Positions 8,976 through 49,500 of a stretch of DNA of 62,477 bases are shown piece after piece. Position numbers and translations under genes: made by a program. Source of the DNA: Erysipelothrix sp. (GTDB lineage Bacteria; Bacillota_I; Bacilli_A; Erysipelotrichales; Erysipelotrichaceae); the NCBI GenBank assembly GCA_012727815.1, contig JAAYGI010000035.1:1-62477 (forward strand). Reading direction: 5' to 3'. Position 1 is the first letter of the stretch. Each line of letters starts with the position of its first letter. The notes beneath the pieces were generated by a model. That model was given only the letters and a program-made list of their open reading frames with translations. It searched no databases and was not told the DNA's origin.

Positions 8976-9114
8976 GTATATACGATCGATATAGATTAAT
9001 ATAGGAGAAGATTCAAGGAGTGAAATATAAAAAACAAACATACAAATATGAAAGATAATTAAATACTTATATACAAGAGATTTCTAATGTGTTATTATAG
9101 ACCATAGTAAAGGT

Positions 9115-9145
9115 CCTTTAAGTTATGACAGAGAGCATAACAAGG
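9115..9145 (+). promoter_or_regulatory. PyrR-binding loop (pyrimidine attenuation)
   Basis: CCTTTAA then a 6-bp upper stem GTTATG/CATAAC around the loop ACAGAGAG, closed by AAGG pairing to CCTT. This purine-rich loop with a bulged lower stem matches the RNA hairpin bound by UMP/UTP-loaded PyrR in Bacillus-type pyr operons. It lies 32 bases before a terminator and upstream of a uracil permease gene, so high pyrimidine levels should cause termination. Confidence 0.8.
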
Positions 9146-9176
9146 TAAGCACATAATATTTGCATACCCCATACTT

Positions 9177-9200
9177 AAAGGCGCACTTGCGTCTTTTTTT
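9177..9200 (+). terminator. attenuator terminator of the uracil permease leader
   Basis: Stem AAAGGCGC/GCGTCTTT (one G-U pair) with loop ACTT runs into seven Ts. It sits between the PyrR loop and the permease ribosome binding site. Confidence 0.75.
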
Positions 9201-10644: not shown

Positions 10645-10680
10645 TTAGTCTTGACTAACAACTATCTTATGATAGACTAA
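10645..10680 (+). promoter_or_regulatory. promoter and candidate MntR operator of the metal importer operon
   Basis: TTAGTC-TT-GACTAA (10645-10658) is a palindrome with perfect 6-base arms whose right part forms the -35 (TTGACT, 10651-10656). A further GACTAA half-site lies at 10675-10680. The -10 is probably TAGACT (10673-10678, 16-base spacer). A very similar palindrome lies in the antiporter promoter at 13939-13953. Binding by the DtxR-family regulator encoded in this operon is inferred. Confidence 0.6.
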
Positions 10681-10698
10681 TATTAAGAGGTGAGTATT

Positions 10699-11430
10699 AT
10701 GATAAGTGTTAAGGACTTAACTGTTTCATACAGTGATAAAAAAGTTTTAGAAAATATAAATATAGAATATGATTCTGGAAGTATCGTTGGAATTATTGGT
10801 CCCAATGGTGCAGGAAAATCTACCATGATCAAAGCGATACTAAATCTAATACCAAAAGATTCATGTGAGATAGTTTGGACAAATGATGATTTAAACAAAA
10901 AAACTGTGGCATATATTCCACAAAAAAGTGATGTTGATTGGGATTTTCCCTTAAGTGTCTTGGATTTAGTCATGATGGGGTTGTATCCGAAAATAGGAAC
11001 TGGAAGACGTGTTGATAAATCATATAGGGAATTAGCAAAAGAAGTTTTAAAAAGTGTGGATATGTTAGAGTATAAAAACCGACAAATTGGACAGTTATCA
11101 GGTGGTCAACAACAACGTGTATTTATGGCGCGTGCACTCATTCAAGAACCAAGTATATTATTTCTTGATGAACCCTTTGTTGGTATTGACACAAGAACTG
11201 AAAAACTATTGATGAATATATTAAAAGAACTAAGAAATAAAGGAAAGCTGATATTTATAGTTCATCACGATTTATCAAAAGTAAAAGAATACTTTGACGA
11301 TATAATTTTAATCAATAAAACTATTATTGCACAAGGAAAAGTTGATCAAGTATATAACAACAGTAATTTAAAGAAAGCATACTTAAGTCAAGTATCGGAA
11401 TTAGGAGGTCAAGATGAGCTTCATATCTGA
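10699..11430 (+). CDS. mntB: manganese-type ABC transporter ATP-binding protein
   Basis: A 243-residue ATPase of the metal (MntB/ZnuC/PsaB) subfamily: Walker A GPNGAGKST near residue 35, Q-loop region YIPQKSDVDWDFPLSVLDLV typical of metal importers, signature LSGGQQQR, Walker B ILFLDEPFVGID. AGAGGTGA places the start at 10699 rather than at a GTG three codons earlier. It is first in a four-gene operon with permease, binding lipoprotein and DtxR-type regulator, all overlapping by 4 or 17 bases. Confidence 0.9.
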   Translation: MISVKDLTVSYSDKKVLENINIEYDSGSIVGIIGPNGAGKSTMIKAILNLIPKDSCEIVWTNDDLNKKTVAYIPQKSDVDWDFPLSVLDLVMMGLYPKIGTGRRVDKSYRELAKEVLKSVDMLEYKNRQIGQLSGGQQQRVFMARALIQEPSILFLDEPFVGIDTRTEKLLMNILKELRNKGKLIFIVHHDLSKVKEYFDDIILINKTIIAQGKVDQVYNNSNLKKAYLSQVSELGGQDELHI

Positions 11431-12250
11431 TTTATTAACATATGGCTTTTTACAAAAAGCTATGGTTACAGCAATTGTAGTTGGAATTATAGCAGGTGTC
11501 ATTGGATGTTTTATCATCTTAAAAGGAATGGCACTAATGGGCGATGCGATAAGTCATGCCATTTTACCAGGAGTTGCCCTGTCTTATATATTTGGGATTA
11601 ACTATTTCATAGGAGCAGTAGCAACAGGTTTACTTGTAACTTATTTAATCAATCAAGTATCGTACAAGACAAAACTAAAAAATGATGTTTCTGTAGGCGT
11701 TATATTCTCGGCATTCTTTGCCTTAGGAATACTCTTATTACTCAAAGCACAAACAGCAGTTGATCTAACACAAATACTATTTGGAAATGTATTGACGATT
11801 AAAGATACGGATATGTATATAACCTTTGGTGTAGGAATTGTAGTATTAATACTAATTATTATATTTTATAAGGAATTTCTTATTACAAGTTTTGATCCAG
11901 AAATGGCAAAGGTGTATGGGATTAATGTTAACTTATTTAACAGTTTATTAATGGTTCTACTAACACTTGTTACAGTAGCATCACTTCAAACAGTAGGTGT
12001 TATTTTGGTAGTATCAATGCTTGTAACCCCCGCTGCTACAGCATATCTATTAACAGAAAAGATGAAGGTAATGTTGGTGCTTTCTGCCATCTTTGGTGGA
12101 GTATCAAGTATTATTGGACTCTACTTAAGTTTTAAATATAATTTAAGTTCAGGAGCAATTATAGTGTTGGTATCATTTGGATTCTTTGTATTAGCATATT
12201 TATTTTCTCCACAACAAGGAATACTAATGCGAAAAGGAGTCGTAAAATGA
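11414..12250 (+). CDS. mntC: manganese-type ABC transporter permease
   Basis: A 278-residue ABC-3 family permease with about eight hydrophobic segments and the conserved LKGMALMGDAISHAILPGVA motif near residue 38. It overlaps the ATPase gene by 17 bases, with GGAGG inside the end of that gene. With the ATPase and the lipoprotein it forms a divalent metal importer. The lipoprotein's ligand set favours manganese. Confidence 0.92.
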   Translation: MSFISDLLTYGFLQKAMVTAIVVGIIAGVIGCFIILKGMALMGDAISHAILPGVALSYIFGINYFIGAVATGLLVTYLINQVSYKTKLKNDVSVGVIFSAFFALGILLLLKAQTAVDLTQILFGNVLTIKDTDMYITFGVGIVVLILIIIFYKEFLITSFDPEMAKVYGINVNLFNSLLMVLLTLVTVASLQTVGVILVVSMLVTPAATAYLLTEKMKVMLVLSAIFGGVSSIIGLYLSFKYNLSSGAIIVLVSFGFFVLAYLFSPQQGILMRKGVVK

Positions 12251-13158
12251 AAAAGTTTATAAGTTTATTATCTGTGTTATTTATTTTAACAGCATGTTCT
12301 AGTAGTAAACCAGATACAAAAAATGATAAGTTAAGTATTGTAACTTCATATACAATACTTGAAGATATGGTACACCAAATTGGAAAAGAACTGGTTGATA
12401 TTCATAACTTAGTACCATCAGGTACTGACCCTCATGAATATGAGCCCCTTCCAAATGATATAAAACAGGCAAGTGATGCAGATATTTTACTTTACAATGG
12501 TTTAAATCTTGAAGGTGGAGAACATGGTTGGTTTATGAAACTCGCACGTTCTGTAAATAAAGATACTGAAAAGATCCATGATTTAAGTCTAGGAATAACT
12601 CCTTTATCACTGTTCTCAGATGACAATGTTGTTGATGAGATTAATCCACATGCATACTTAAGTCCAAAAAATGGATTAATAATGGTAGAAAATGTTTTGA
12701 AAATTCTAATAGAAAATGATGTAGATAATAAAGATATCTATGAAGAGAATGCACAAGCTTATATAAAAACATTGAATGACATAGACCTTTCTTATAGAAA
12801 AGAGTTTGATACACTTGAATCCAAAGTATTGGTAACAAGTGAAAGAGCATTCCAATACATGAATAAGGAATATGGTTTAGAAGAAGGATACATTTGGCAA
12901 ATAGATACAGAAGAAACAGGAACTGCCAAACAAATCAAAGAATTAACAGCATTCATAAAAGAAAAAGATGTTAAAATTCTATTCTTAGAATCTAACGTTG
13001 ATCCAAGACCGATGGAGACAGTATCACAAGAGTCAGGTGTTCCAATATATAAAGAACACTTATACTCTGATGATATTGGAAGTAAAGGATCAGCTGTAGA
13101 TACTTATGAGAAACTACTTATACACAATCTTGAAGCTATTATTGGAGGTTTGAAATGA
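12247..13158 (+). CDS. mntA: manganese-binding ABC transporter lipoprotein (MntA/PsaA-like)
   Basis: A 303-residue cluster A-I metal-binding lipoprotein. The signal peptide ends in LTAC with the lipidated Cys at residue 17. Metal ligands can be matched to PsaA: His63 in DPHEYEP, His135 in NPHAYLSP, Glu199 in VTSERAFQY and Asp275 in LYSDDIG. A Glu as third ligand and the absence of a His-rich loop point to Mn rather than Zn. The gene overlaps the permease by 4 bases and the regulator by 4 bases. I infer Mn from these residues; Fe is possible. Confidence 0.88.
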   Translation: MKKFISLLSVLFILTACSSSKPDTKNDKLSIVTSYTILEDMVHQIGKELVDIHNLVPSGTDPHEYEPLPNDIKQASDADILLYNGLNLEGGEHGWFMKLARSVNKDTEKIHDLSLGITPLSLFSDDNVVDEINPHAYLSPKNGLIMVENVLKILIENDVDNKDIYEENAQAYIKTLNDIDLSYRKEFDTLESKVLVTSERAFQYMNKEYGLEEGYIWQIDTEETGTAKQIKELTAFIKEKDVKILFLESNVDPRPMETVSQESGVPIYKEHLYSDDIGSKGSAVDTYEKLLIHNLEAIIGGLK

Positions 13159-13823
13159 AAAAAATGACCCGCTCACAGGAAGACTACCTAAAAGTAATCT
13201 ATGTGGAAAACTTAAAGAGGAATATGATTACCAATAAACTAATTTCAGAAAAAATGGAGGTTTCAGCTCCTTCGGTTTCTGATATGTTGAATAAGTTAAT
13301 AAAGGCAGATCTATTAGTTAAAAGTAAGGACTACGGATATAAATTATCTGAGTCAGGAATTGAAGCAACACAAGAACTCCTAAAGAAACATAGATTGTGG
13401 GAGGTGTTTCTAATTGAGAAGTTAGGTTATTCATGGGATGAAGTACACGAAGAATCAGATGTACTAGAACATGTAACTTCCTTAAAGTTAATGGATAAAC
13501 TCAATGAATATTTAGATAAACCACAATACTGCCCACATGGTAAAGTCATTTATGGAAATGGAATTGAAGAAAATTTAGAAGATATCAAGAGTATGAACTT
13601 TATGCAAGTTGGTGATACAGGTTCAATTCATATCATTGAAGATGATATCTTATTACTGCAATACCTATCTAAAAAAGAAGTGAAAATTCACGACATATTT
13701 TTAGTGGAATCACAGGATGCCTTTGATGGAACATTGCATTTAAGTGTAAATGGTACAAAGGTAGATATTAGTGAACGTGCTGCAAGTATGATTTATGTTA
13801 GAAGTGAAACATCGAAGGCATAG
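13155..13823 (+). CDS. DtxR/MntR-family metalloregulator
   Basis: A 222-residue protein with an N-terminal winged helix (RSQEDYLKVIYVENLKRN, then EKMEVSAPSVSDMLNKLIKA), the dimerisation and metal-binding segment HRLWEVFLIEKLGYSWDEVH...LEHVTS, the CPHG region and a C-terminal SH3/FeoA-like domain, so it has the long three-domain form. It most likely represses the importer when Mn is replete. It is the last gene of the operon, so it is probably subject to its own control. TTAGTC palindromes at both neighbouring promoters are its likely targets. Confidence 0.88.
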   Translation: MKKMTRSQEDYLKVIYVENLKRNMITNKLISEKMEVSAPSVSDMLNKLIKADLLVKSKDYGYKLSESGIEATQELLKKHRLWEVFLIEKLGYSWDEVHEESDVLEHVTSLKLMDKLNEYLDKPQYCPHGKVIYGNGIEENLEDIKSMNFMQVGDTGSIHIIEDDILLLQYLSKKEVKIHDIFLVESQDAFDGTLHLSVNGTKVDISERAASMIYVRSETSKA

Positions 13824-13829
13824 TGAATA

Positions 13830-13839
13830 TTTAGTCTTG
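13830..13839 (+). promoter_or_regulatory. TTAGTCTTGA half-site
   Basis: TTAGTCTTGA repeats the left half of the importer operator just after the regulator gene, 100 bases upstream of the antiporter promoter site. The right half is degenerate. It could be an accessory regulator site or chance. Confidence 0.25.
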
Positions 13840-13881
13840 AAAATCAATTAAAATGTTGGCAAAATAAAGTTAAAAATGTCG

Positions 13882-13910
13882 TAAAAACTCTTTATATAGA
13901 AGAGTTTTTA
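13882..13910 (+). terminator. terminator of the metal importer operon
   Basis: A 10-bp stem AAAAACTCTT/AAGAGTTTTT with a 7-base loop, ending in the T-rich arm. Confidence 0.75.
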
Positions 13911-13922
13911 TATGTTGAAGAT

Positions 13923-13953
13923 TTGACTATAAGTGATATTAGTCTTATACTAA
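13923..13953 (+). promoter_or_regulatory. promoter of the antiporter operon with overlapping TTAGTC palindrome
   Basis: -35 TTGACT (13923-13928), 17-base spacer, -10 TATACT (13946-13951). The imperfect palindrome TTAGTCTTATACTAA (13939-13953) covers the -10 and resembles the operator of the metal importer operon (10645-10658). This suggests shared control by the DtxR-family protein encoded between them. Confidence 0.6.
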
Positions 13954-13973
13954 AGCAACTGGAGGTGTGAATA

Positions 13974-15146
13974 TTGAATATATATTTTAAGTTAGGATTC
14001 CTACTAATGTTTGGTCTAATTGGAGGCCGCGTTGCTAGGAAATTCAATTTGCCCAACGTAACGGGTTATTTAATCGGAGGACTATTTTTAGGACCTTCAT
14101 TTCTAAATGTTATCGGTGCACAAGATGTGCCTATTATAAATTTTATTAACGAAATAAGTTTATCTGCAATCGCATTTAATATAGGTGGAGAATTTCTACT
14201 TAGCACCATAAAAAGAATCGGTAAAGATATCTTTATTATTACTGTTTTTGAGGTATTAGGAGTTGTTGCACTTGTATTTGGTGTTATGTATTTTATAGCA
14301 GGGCAAAGTTTTGTTTTCAGTATAATCATTGCATCCATGTCTGCTGCAACAGCACCAGCAGGAACGCTAATGGTTATTAGACAATATAGAGCAAAAGGTG
14401 TTATGACCGATGCAATTCTTCCTATAGCAGCATTAGATGATGCTTTAGGGATTATGGTGTTTGGTTTAGCAATGGCAGCAGCACAATTTAGCATTGGTAA
14501 TGTTGAAGGTGGCACACTGGCATTAATAGCAGCGCCATTTATCGAAATCATATTATCAATTGGTATTGGTGCACTGATCGGACTTGCAATCACAAGAATT
14601 ACAAATAGAATAAAATCTGAAGAAGAGTTAACAGTATTTGTGTTCTTATCAATTCTGATTGCACCAGCAATTGGACAAGTTCTTCCAGTAAGTTCACTGC
14701 TTGTAGCAATGGCAATGGGTGCAACCTATGTTAACTTGGGTAGACAACCTGCCAGAACATTTAATAATTTAAATAGTTTAGTACCACCAATCAATGTCTT
14801 GTTCTTTGCATTTGCAGGAGCAAGTCTAGATTTAAGTATTCTTGCAAACATTGGTCTACTGGGAGCCTTATATGTATTAAGTAGAACTTTTGGTAAAGTA
14901 TGGGGAACCACACTGGGTGCTAAAGTAACAAAAAGTGATCCTAAGATGGTTAAATACCTTGGATGGGCATTGCTACCACAAGGTGGTATATCCATAGGAT
15001 TATCGATGATCGTAAGAAATCAATTACCAGACCATGCAGGTGGTGTTGTAACATTGATCTTATTTGCGGTTTTATTCTTTGAAATCGCTGGACCAATTCT
15101 TGCAAAGGTAGCAATATCTAAAGCTGGAGAACTTGGAACTGATTAA
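13974..15146 (+). CDS. CPA2-family monovalent cation:proton antiporter
   Basis: A 390-residue membrane protein with about 12 hydrophobic segments. It has the CPA2 features GRVARKFNLPNVTGYLIGGLFLGP at the N-terminus (first 20 residues of this stretch are enough to place it) and the ion-site region ALDDALGIMVFGL near residue 155, with two adjacent Asp residues. There is no C-terminal RCK/TrkA-N domain, unlike KefB/KefC. The start is TTG: GGAGGT lies 7 bases upstream and no ATG fits. It is followed 17 bases later by a PII-like gene that may replace the missing regulatory domain. The transported ion is unknown. Confidence 0.85.
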   Translation: MNIYFKLGFLLMFGLIGGRVARKFNLPNVTGYLIGGLFLGPSFLNVIGAQDVPIINFINEISLSAIAFNIGGEFLLSTIKRIGKDIFIITVFEVLGVVALVFGVMYFIAGQSFVFSIIIASMSAATAPAGTLMVIRQYRAKGVMTDAILPIAALDDALGIMVFGLAMAAAQFSIGNVEGGTLALIAAPFIEIILSIGIGALIGLAITRITNRIKSEEELTVFVFLSILIAPAIGQVLPVSSLLVAMAMGATYVNLGRQPARTFNNLNSLVPPINVLFFAFAGASLDLSILANIGLLGALYVLSRTFGKVWGTTLGAKVTKSDPKMVKYLGWALLPQGGISIGLSMIVRNQLPDHAGGVVTLILFAVLFFEIAGPILAKVAISKAGELGTD

Positions 15147-15163
15147 TTAGAAGGAGGGCTTAT

Positions 15164-15511
15164 ATGCAAGCATTAATATTAGTTTTAAATAAAGTTGAAT
15201 TATTAGAAGATATACTTGCGGCAATGAGTAAGGCAGGTGTGAGTGGTGCAACAATCCTTGATTCACAAGGAATGGGATCCGCTATTGTATCAGGAAAACA
15301 AGATGTACCAATGTTTGGTAGCTTGAAAGCATTCTTTGATAGAGAACATCCTTACAATAAAACACTCTTCACAATTGTTGAAAATGAAGAAAAATTACAA
15401 AATGCAATTGATGCAATAATATCAGTTGCTGGAAGACTTGAAAATGCAAACGAAGGTCTTATGTTCACAGTTCCTGTTGGACAAGTTATTGGACTTAGAA
15501 AAACAGACTAA
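15164..15511 (+). CDS. PII-like (P-II superfamily) signalling protein
   Basis: A 115-residue protein with the ferredoxin-like PII pattern: MQALILVLNKVELLEDILAA at the N-terminus, a Gly-rich loop region ATILDSQGMGSAIV where the T-loop begins, and a second half ending in MFTVPVGQVIGLRKTD. GAAGGAGGG lies 9 bases upstream. PII-like proteins bind nucleotides or anions and often gate the transporter encoded next to them; here the partner would be the CPA2 antiporter. Which ligand it senses cannot be told from the sequence. Confidence 0.75.
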   Translation: MQALILVLNKVELLEDILAAMSKAGVSGATILDSQGMGSAIVSGKQDVPMFGSLKAFFDREHPYNKTLFTIVENEEKLQNAIDAIISVAGRLENANEGLMFTVPVGQVIGLRKTD

Positions 15512-15516
15512 TTATT

Positions 15517-15560
15517 AAAAAACGATGTTTCTACTATTATTGTGGAGACATCGTTTTTTT
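15517..15560. terminator. rho-independent terminator
   Basis: A 12-bp stem (15517-15528 with 15548-15559) closed by A6/T6 ends, with a 19-base loop. It ends the antiporter operon and could also act on the convergent deacetylase pseudogene. Confidence 0.8.
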
Positions 15561-15606: not shown

Positions 15607-16820
15607 TTAATTGTTAGGGGTATGTCTGTAAGGTTTTGTATCCCTTGTGATTACTTCAAAATGGTAACCGTGTTCTTTTGCATATCGTATTATATCTTTT
15701 AGTGCTAATGCACTTTGAGCCTTAGTATCGTGCATTAAGACATGATTTGATTTTGTTTTAGAGAGATTTTGTGTAACATTTTGATATATTTTTTGAGAGC
15801 CAATATTTCCAATAGCATCTTGAGAATCTACATTCCAGTCAAAGTATGTATAACCTTTATTTAGAACATTATTTGCTAGAAAAGTCATTATGCCATTACT
15901 ATATTTACGACTAACTGTATTAGAACTTCCCCCTGGAATCTAATAATACTTGAGGAAGTTTGTGTAAGTCTTGTGACTCTATCACTTACCTTGTTAAGGT
16001 CACTATAATAGTTGTCTACAGAAGCATAAACATCACTGTAAAGATGAGAATAGGTGTGGAGTGCAATTGTGTGGCCTTCATTATATGCGCGTACAATCAG
16101 TGCATCAGGACCTTTTCCTGTAACAAAGAAAGTTGCTTTAACACCTTCTTCTTTAAGGGTATCTAATATATCAGAAGTAACTGTAGGATGTGGCCCATCA
16201 TCAAAACTCAAGTATATGACCCCAGGTGTGCTGTTTGTGTTTCCTTTATTAGTTGAATTTGAAAGTACAATTGGTGGGATGATAATAGGTTTATATACTT
16301 TGACGATTCGTTTTAACTCTGTTTGATTATTGGAGCTGTCTTTGGCAAGATAAGTCAGTTCATAAGTACCTTCAGTTTCAGTATCAAGGGTACCACTTAT
16401 GAGGACTTCAACAGTATCATCATAATTGTCTTCTACATTATACCCTTGTTCTTGGTATGAATCTCCAACTTTTAAACTTGTCTCTAAGTCACCTTTTAGT
16501 GATAGGGAAGGTGCTAAATCATCAATTACTTCAATATTTCTAGTAACGGATTTCATATGGTAGATCCACTTATATTCATATGTTATAGAGTAAGAACCAA
16601 TCTTATCGAGATTAAGATCCGTCTTTAAAAAAGGTGAGTCCTCAATTGTTTTATTCATGTATTTTACAAGGGCGCCTGCATCTTCGTAGTTGTCGCCATA
16701 TTTTAAAACAATATCAGATGACCCTAATAATGTGAGTTTAGAGTATGTATCCTTATGCCAAAGATACATGGATAAGGATAAAAGTAAGATTAAAGGTAAT
16801 ATCCATTATAATTTCTTCAT
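15607..16820 (-). pseudogene. polysaccharide deacetylase with Ig-like domain, broken by a stop and a frameshift
   Basis: Read across the breaks, this is a membrane-anchored or secreted CE4 deacetylase: an N-terminal hydrophobic segment, a DUF5011-like Ig-fold region (about residues 40-170), then the NodB domain with SFDDGPHP, HTYSH, RFPGG, DWNVDSQD and HVLMHDT. The natural start at 16820 has a good site (AAAGGGGAT) but codon 5 is TAA (16808-16806). Translation could restart only at 16769, losing the signal segment. Near 15935 one base is missing in the RFPGG motif (TTC-CAG-GGG instead of TTC-CCA-GGG), shifting frame. Catalytic motifs beyond the shift are intact, so decay is recent, or the assembly has two errors. 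Confidence 0.85.
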
Positions 16821-49320: not shown

Positions 49321-49340
49321 AAAGATAAGTTAATATACGA

Positions 49341-49475
49341 TTTATAAAGGGGACGCGGTTTGCAAAGTAAAAGGTGCAATCGCCGAAGTGTCCATGTGAT
49401 ACTGGGGTTAAGCTGAATAAGTTTAACACTGTCTGATAAAAGTTGCCCGACTTTTATTGTGAAGCACTTTATAAA
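49341..49475 (+). promoter_or_regulatory. lysine riboswitch aptamer (L box)
   Basis: P1 pairs TTTATAAAG (49341-49349) with CTTTATAAA (49467-49475). Inside are conserved L-box elements: GGTGCAATCGCCGAAG, then CTGGGGTTA and the purine-rich loops expected around a five-way junction. It lies directly upstream of diaminopimelate decarboxylase and the rest of the lysine operon, which confirms the ligand. Confidence 0.9.
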
Positions 49476-49500
49476 TTGTGGGCAAAAGGAAGTTCTTCAG

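Follow-up and report, generated by a model that had tools for sequence, protein, structure and literature searches.

Two neighboring and probably separately controlled units at an Erysipelothrix locus: a manganese importer operon and a NapA-like antiporter paired with a PII-like protein

Organization of the locus

The stretch of Erysipelothrix sp. DNA analyzed here (contig JAAYGI010000035.1, 62,477 nt, referred to as the window) carries, on its plus strand, the genes for a manganese importer of the SloABC/MntABC type and, in last place, for its SloR/MntR-type repressor (unit 1, 10690 to 13823), followed by genes for a cation/proton antiporter and a PII-like protein (unit 2, 13974 to 15511). 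A sequence-only reading of the locus had placed both sets of genes under one manganese-responsive palindrome. The analysis presented below leads us to favor, with moderate confidence, two neighboring but separately controlled units, i.e., an autoregulated manganese importer and an antiporter which is gated by the PII-like protein and serves Na+, K+, or osmotic balance.

The importer genes (10690 to 13158), which were assigned to manganese or a similar metal, encode an ATP-binding cassette (ABC) ATPase (10690 to 11430; listed from GTG, the spacing to the ribosome-binding site favoring the ATG at 10699), a SloB-like permease of the ABC-3 type (11414 to 12250), and a substrate-binding lipoprotein of the ZnuA family resembling EfaA/SloC/MntC (12247 to 13158; scores below the NCBIfam cut-offs). 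The end of the importer genes overlaps by four bases the start of the DtxR-family regulator gene (13155 to 13823), which lies between the two palindromes to which the sequence-only reading had drawn attention. Its product contains an N-terminal helix-turn-helix domain, a metal-binding/dimerization domain, and a C-terminal FeoA domain, all three above their Pfam cut-offs, and its closest solved relatives are SloR (5cvi; E value of 6e-41 over 213 residues) and ScaR (3hrs). Asp10 occupies the manganese-type metal-ligand position, common to 16 of 16 aligned sequences, which we take to correspond to Asp8 of Bacillus subtilis MntR and Met10 of DtxR. The score against the NCBIfam MntR equivalog NF047407 was 102.5 bits, below the cut-off of 350, this model covering another subfamily.

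A conserved operator at the importer promoter

The palindrome TTAGTCTTGACTAA was located at 10645 to 10658, exactly where it had been placed, and is the sole TTAGTC-N0..4-GACTAA in the window (0.02 expected); no further exact copy was found in the genome. Its arms, TTAGT and ACTAA, are separated by a 4-nt spacer (14 bp in all), and it overlaps, as had been noted, the importer -35 element, the TTGACT hexamer at 10651 to 10656 of a weak putative promoter (TTGACT-16-TAGACT, 10651 to 10678; 9/12 consensus match). A second, degenerate copy, TTATGATAGACTAA, is present at 10667 to 10680, 22 bp downstream of the first, with both boxes overlapping the promoter; the nearest importer promoters, those of genomes G006 (Erysipelothrix urinaevulpis) and G012 (Erysipelothrix inopinata), display tandem spacings of 22 bp and 23 bp, respectively.

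The 200 bp upstream of each of 16 mnt/dtxR genes in ten other Erysipelothrix genomes harbored a perfect TTAGG-N4-CCTAA in 15 cases, the sixteenth promoter (G007) carrying TTAGGTTAGACTAA. When ten genomes were searched whole, a perfect TTAGGYNNRCCTAA was encountered zero to two times per genome, at mnt/dtxR promoters, with the exception of one further match each in G002 and G009, both of which were set aside as being inside an open reading frame. The window box shares the 14-bp register and the position of the genus box and differs from it by one base per half. A palindrome of fixed register is, in other words, kept at importer and regulator promoters, and by this conservation the sequence at 10645 to 10658 is a genuine SloR/MntR-type operator, at which metal-dependent binding of the regulator is predicted. 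The DtxR/MntR-type control of the importer proposed by the sequence-only reading is thus retained.

The altered base of the window box is position 1 of the CCTAA repeat. Because IdeR tolerates a C-to-T change at this position (PMC8464063), it is plausible that the window box represents a functional variant. SloR is known to bind several operator copies cooperatively and to overlap the -35 element at mntH (PMC12096823), and this arrangement of multiple copies over a -35 element is that of the window importer promoter. By analogy with SloR, for which such repression is established, we infer that metal-loaded repressor on both tandem boxes would block the importer promoter and thereby turn off the importer together with the repressor itself. 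The locus resembles the streptococcal SloABC-SloR and ScaR systems in importer type, in its three-domain regulator, and in having its promoter, the -35 element included, covered by more than one operator copy, and it differs from them in its operator sequence, TTAGTCTTGACTAA. Furthermore, the importer operon of the window ends with the regulator gene, whereas dtxR lies apart in the nearest mntABC relatives (G006 and G012). The manganese side of the locus is, on the whole, ordinary.

One feature of the regulator may be recorded beside its altered operator. Residue 43, a recognition-helix position which contacts bases in IdeR, is Asp in the window regulator alone, being Glu, and once Gln, in the other full-length family members, and protein and site may have changed together, although this is a single example. 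A causal role of the Glu43-to-Asp change is not claimed, because the Q43A variant of IdeR binds normally although Gln43 is in contact with the first C of CCTAA (PMC8464063), because position 1 tolerates the C-to-T change, and because G007, whose regulator retains Glu43, already has one ACTAA half-site. With a correlation of n = 1, the co-change represents a lead, not a mechanism.

The region upstream of the antiporter gene

Between the two units, a terminator-like hairpin with a U tract (13881 to 13911; -12.4 kcal/mol, z = -4.9) is predicted to close the importer-regulator unit, while a second, more stable one (15518 to 15560; -22.6 kcal/mol, z = -8.5, likewise followed by a U tract) would close the antiporter-PII unit; both predictions rest on folding, neither hairpin being listed by a consensus terminator scan. 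The best promoter-like site preceding the antiporter gene, TTGACT-17-TATACT (13923 to 13951; 10/12), is situated behind the first hairpin, such that unit 2 would possess its own promoter. Transcripts of the importer operon reading past the hairpin could nevertheless confer an indirect manganese response on the antiporter operon, the two units being on the same strand and 150 nt apart and the hairpin being A-U rich as well as missing from the consensus scan. Set against the z value and U tract of the hairpin, and against a promoter-like site located after it, such read-through is considered quite unlikely to govern unit 2.

The second palindrome of the sequence-only reading, TTAGTCTTATACTAA, does occur at 13939 to 13953 and does overlap the antiporter -10 element, the TATACT hexamer ending at 13951. 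Its equation with the importer box was not upheld, as the arms are separated by a 5-nt spacer (15-bp register) rather than the 4-nt spacer of the 14-bp importer box. In the 14-bp register, the best match in the 200 nt preceding the antiporter gene deviates at 3 of the 10 arm positions, and in a 12-position form the best intergenic site, TTAGTCTTGAAAAT, has 3 mismatches, a value equalled by chance in 12% of simulated 150-nt stretches. At four other Erysipelothrix antiporter promoters, the best 14-bp-register sites have 2 to 3 mismatches of 10, and no operator box is present. The antiporter site consequently shares neither register nor conservation at orthologous promoters with the importer operator, and it is probably not an operator. 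A comparable case is known from Streptococcus mutans, in which SloR failed to bind a similar-looking palindrome located immediately 3' of the mntH -10 element (PMC12096823).

A number of observations nonetheless speak for binding of the regulator at 13939 to 13953, by which manganese would control the antiporter and PII-like genes in this organism. The antiporter gene adjoins the regulator gene, SloR tolerates imperfect sites (PMC12096823), and an arm pair TTAGT..ACTAA with any gap of 0 to 8, here positioned on the -10 element, has a chance of about 1% of arising in 150 nt. Moreover, the window contains three copies of the half-site string TTAGTCTT. One belongs to the importer operator, and the other two (at 13831 and 13939) are in the stretch separating dtxR from the antiporter gene, the copy at 13831 to 13838 standing isolated just 3' of dtxR; two copies were encountered in 0 of 5,000 simulated stretches, in a test made after the sequence had been seen. 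Weighed against the difference in register, an in-register site no better than chance, the four orthologous promoters that have no box, the unbound S. mutans look-alike, and the distribution of the gene pair described below, direct manganese control of the antiporter appears unlikely. Contig C24 carries a second antiporter gene with TTAGTCTTATCCAA in the sequence before it; as this match falls inside a TetR-like coding sequence, it was dismissed as chance.

The antiporter and the PII-like protein

The antiporter gene (13974 to 15146, TTG start) encodes a protein of 390 amino acids, which exceeds the cut-off of Pfam family PF00999 (Na_H_Exchanger; 102 bits versus 26.2). Its score against the NCBIfam CPA2 model TIGR00932 is far below the cut-off (39 bits versus 238.3), and CPA2-like is, therefore, the safe name. 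The best fold match of its predicted structure is NapA (5bz2; template modeling score of 0.80, 21% identity), and a DD ion-binding motif, Asp155-Asp156 in the window protein, is shared by 23 of the 28 PII-linked antiporters in the alignment. Taken together, domain and model assign it to the Na_H_Exchanger superfamily as a NapA-like protein, with monovalent cation/proton antiport as its predicted activity. The sequence-only reading was correct in stating that the antiporter has no C-terminal RCK (or TrkA) domain and is followed by a PII-like gene; the former property is, however, ordinary, the lack of an RCK domain being normal for NapA-type antiporters. NapA of Thermus thermophilus shares with the window protein the fold, the DD motif, a similar length, and the absence of a cytosolic domain, and differs from it by the low identity given above; we know of no PII partner for it. 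Antiporters of the NapA fold are dimers. The other 5 of the 28 PII-linked sequences carry NG or DG in place of DD at residues 155 and 156, such that ion coupling may differ among members.

The PII-like gene (15164 to 15511) begins 17 bases 3' of the antiporter gene and encodes a protein of 115 amino acids, belonging to a CPA2-linked subfamily and scoring 40.1 bits against the P-II Pfam domain (cut-off, 25). PII chains were the top fold matches of its predicted structure, which has a mean predicted local distance difference test score of 78 and in which a T-loop-like segment (residues 34 to 65) is poorly resolved. The classical B-loop TGXXGDGKI is absent, the window protein having ENANEGLMF in its place, and GDGK is not conserved among 43 sequences. 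At the base of the T-loop, the position of Gln39 is mostly Ser or Ala, while Lys66, the equivalent of Lys58, is invariant, a combination that departs from the classical pattern. The most conserved stretches, SQGM at 34 to 37 and PYNKTIF at 63 to 69 (PYNKTLF in the window), border the segment which contacts targets in PII proteins. The PstA/DarA proteins also possess a PII fold and no classical B-loop motif; unlike them, the window protein matches the P-II Pfam family and keeps a long T-loop-like segment, and the c-di-AMP receptor motif of PstA, TKLXXXGGFLXXGNTT (PMC4316997), is missing from it and from the PII-like alignment. By sequence and model, the protein is a member of the PII superfamily that has no classical ATP/2-oxoglutarate motifs.

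Distribution of the antiporter-PII pair

When 84,980 species genomes were scanned for the PII-like family, 79 loci were recovered, in 75 of which an antiporter gene was adjacent and on the same strand (antiporter first in 70 and PII first in 5). These 75 loci belong to Bacillota and to one Anaerolineaceae genome. Mapped on a tree built from 91 antiporters, linkage to a PII-like gene requires 3 changes, compared to 11.5 in shuffles. Within the genus, the pair is present in E. inopinata (G012), E. urinaevulpis (G006), and strain HDW6A (G010), with 54 to 63% identity and far from mnt/dtxR; an importer operon or close regulator relative was not found beside the pair at any scanned locus, and the pair was seen to adjoin mnt/dtxR in the window genome only. 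The 75/79 adjacency and the clustering on the tree show that the pair constitutes an evolutionary unit, whose position beside a manganese operon is local. The functional link between the antiporter and its PII-like neighbor anticipated by the sequence-only reading is supported by these data, while manganese control of the antiporter, which depended on a site that is out of register and separated from the importer operon by a terminator, loses the adjacency on which it drew.

The same distribution bears on the proposal that the antiporter exports manganese, which has only its genomic position in its favor. An exporter would be needed at high manganese, the very condition under which a shared repressor would shut the importer, and regulation by that repressor would run counter to need; the protein has the fold of monovalent cation/proton antiporters, and no manganese genes accompany the 75 other pairs. 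Manganese export is accordingly regarded as highly improbable.

Two Acetivibrio loci (L202 and L227) contain a gene of the PII-like subfamily with no antiporter, beside an opposite-strand DtxR/MntR-like gene and a feoB-like gene; the DtxR relative at these two loci is weak (30%). PII-like homologues of 35 to 43% identity likewise occur with no antiporter at L081 to L099, loci that for the most part belong to the sister family within the same order. These sister-family homologues are compatible with a PII-like protein that acts elsewhere, e.g., as a coexpressed sensor for another target, and so is the literature, in which PII control seems restricted to transporters able to work as trimers (2023 review, PMC10710835). 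Near-obligate adjacency in the close subfamily, irrespective of gene order, and the clustering of linkage on the antiporter tree argue in the opposite direction, rendering action elsewhere doubtful.

A c-di-AMP riboswitch upstream of related pairs

Of 76 loci scanned, 35 carry the cyclic di-AMP (c-di-AMP) riboswitch RF00379 at a distance of 16 to 150 nt upstream of the start of the antiporter gene, and in each of them the antiporter gene precedes the PII-like gene (L190, L198, L211, L212, L215, L217, L219-L223, L226, L228, L229, L231, L232, L234-L241, L243, L244, L247, L248, L251-L255, L257, and L261). Where enough upstream sequence was available, 34 of 68 loci possessed it, compared to 0 of 16 control antiporter loci, a difference to which taxonomy contributes, as the controls are from one order. 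A diadenylate cyclase domain is encoded in the genome of the window and in ten relatives. On this evidence, c-di-AMP and osmotic balance appear to be a better external link for the pair than manganese, and, because many relatives' units are under this riboswitch, the role of unit 2 is probably in Na+/K+/pH balance and not in manganese homeostasis. In one characterized c-di-AMP riboswitch, transcription is terminated at high c-di-AMP, which signals that there is no osmotic distress (PMC9337991). This polarity would fit an antiporter serving under ionic stress, e.g., in Na+ extrusion, better than one for K+ export.

A cation/proton antiporter connected to c-di-AMP has a counterpart in CpaA of Staphylococcus aureus, which reportedly senses the nucleotide via an RCK_C domain. 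CpaA binds c-di-AMP (PMC4316997) and is thus its own sensor, unlike the window antiporter, which has no RCK domain and is accompanied by a separate PII-like protein.

Proposed model and points against it

The two-unit model is built on features read from sequence: the importer operator is conserved, terminator-like hairpins close both units, the gene pair recurs across genomes, and many relatives carry the riboswitch. Unit 2 would be transcribed from its own promoter behind the terminator and would supply a NapA-fold antiporter and its dedicated PII-like partner. The latter most likely docks on the cytosolic face of the antiporter, its T-loop-like segment being the proposed contact, and would hold or release the transporter in response to a small ligand that reflects ionic or osmotic status. 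We infer this step from the gene pairing and from GlnK-AmtB and SbtB-SbtA, in each of which a PII-fold protein is likewise encoded in a conserved pair with a membrane transporter; the transported ion and the ligand are putative as well. The present pair differs from both in that the partner is a NapA-fold antiporter, from a family of dimers, and in that the classical B-loop and Gln39 are absent. PII-type proteins gate transporters for ammonium, bicarbonate, nitrate, and urea (PMC10710835), and gating of the antiporter is the most likely function of the PII-like protein.

Three points weigh against the model. First, the two TTAGTCTT half-sites preceding the antiporter gene leave a residual hint, of limited weight, of a link to the regulator. 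Second, RF00379 is absent from the window, including the antiporter leader, and from 11 Erysipelothrix genomes, such that the c-di-AMP link of the window pair is by kinship only. Third, a trimeric PII protein acting on a dimeric transporter is without precedent in the 2023 review (PMC10710835), and the interaction is a predicted one.

Other features of the window

Beyond the two units, near a run of G residues, a polysaccharide-deacetylase-like gene on the minus strand (15607 to 16769) is broken into two reading frames, which represents either a pseudogene or an assembly error. A lysine riboswitch (RF00168, 53.1 bits) lies on the plus strand at 49339 to 49477, and the leader of a uracil permease gene, at about 9100 to 9200, contains a GAGAG-loop sequence recalling PyrR-binding attenuators, which was not reported by Rfam.

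Implications

The antiporter-PII pair is the part of the locus worth following, while the proposed manganese control of its expression is best set aside for the present. Our searches, confined to an open-access library, found no paper on the pair, which is weak evidence of absence, and the pair apparently constitutes a widespread, uncharacterized partnership. We tentatively propose that this PII-like subfamily represents a detachable gating subunit of RCK-less NapA-fold antiporters, a trimeric regulator on a dimeric transporter, which may read an osmotic signal such as c-di-AMP, another nucleotide, or an ion. If this is true, a PII partner of dimeric-fold antiporters would break the trimer-only rule, would account for the control of antiporters that have no RCK domain, and would connect a sensor of the PII type with the osmotic balance in which c-di-AMP takes part.

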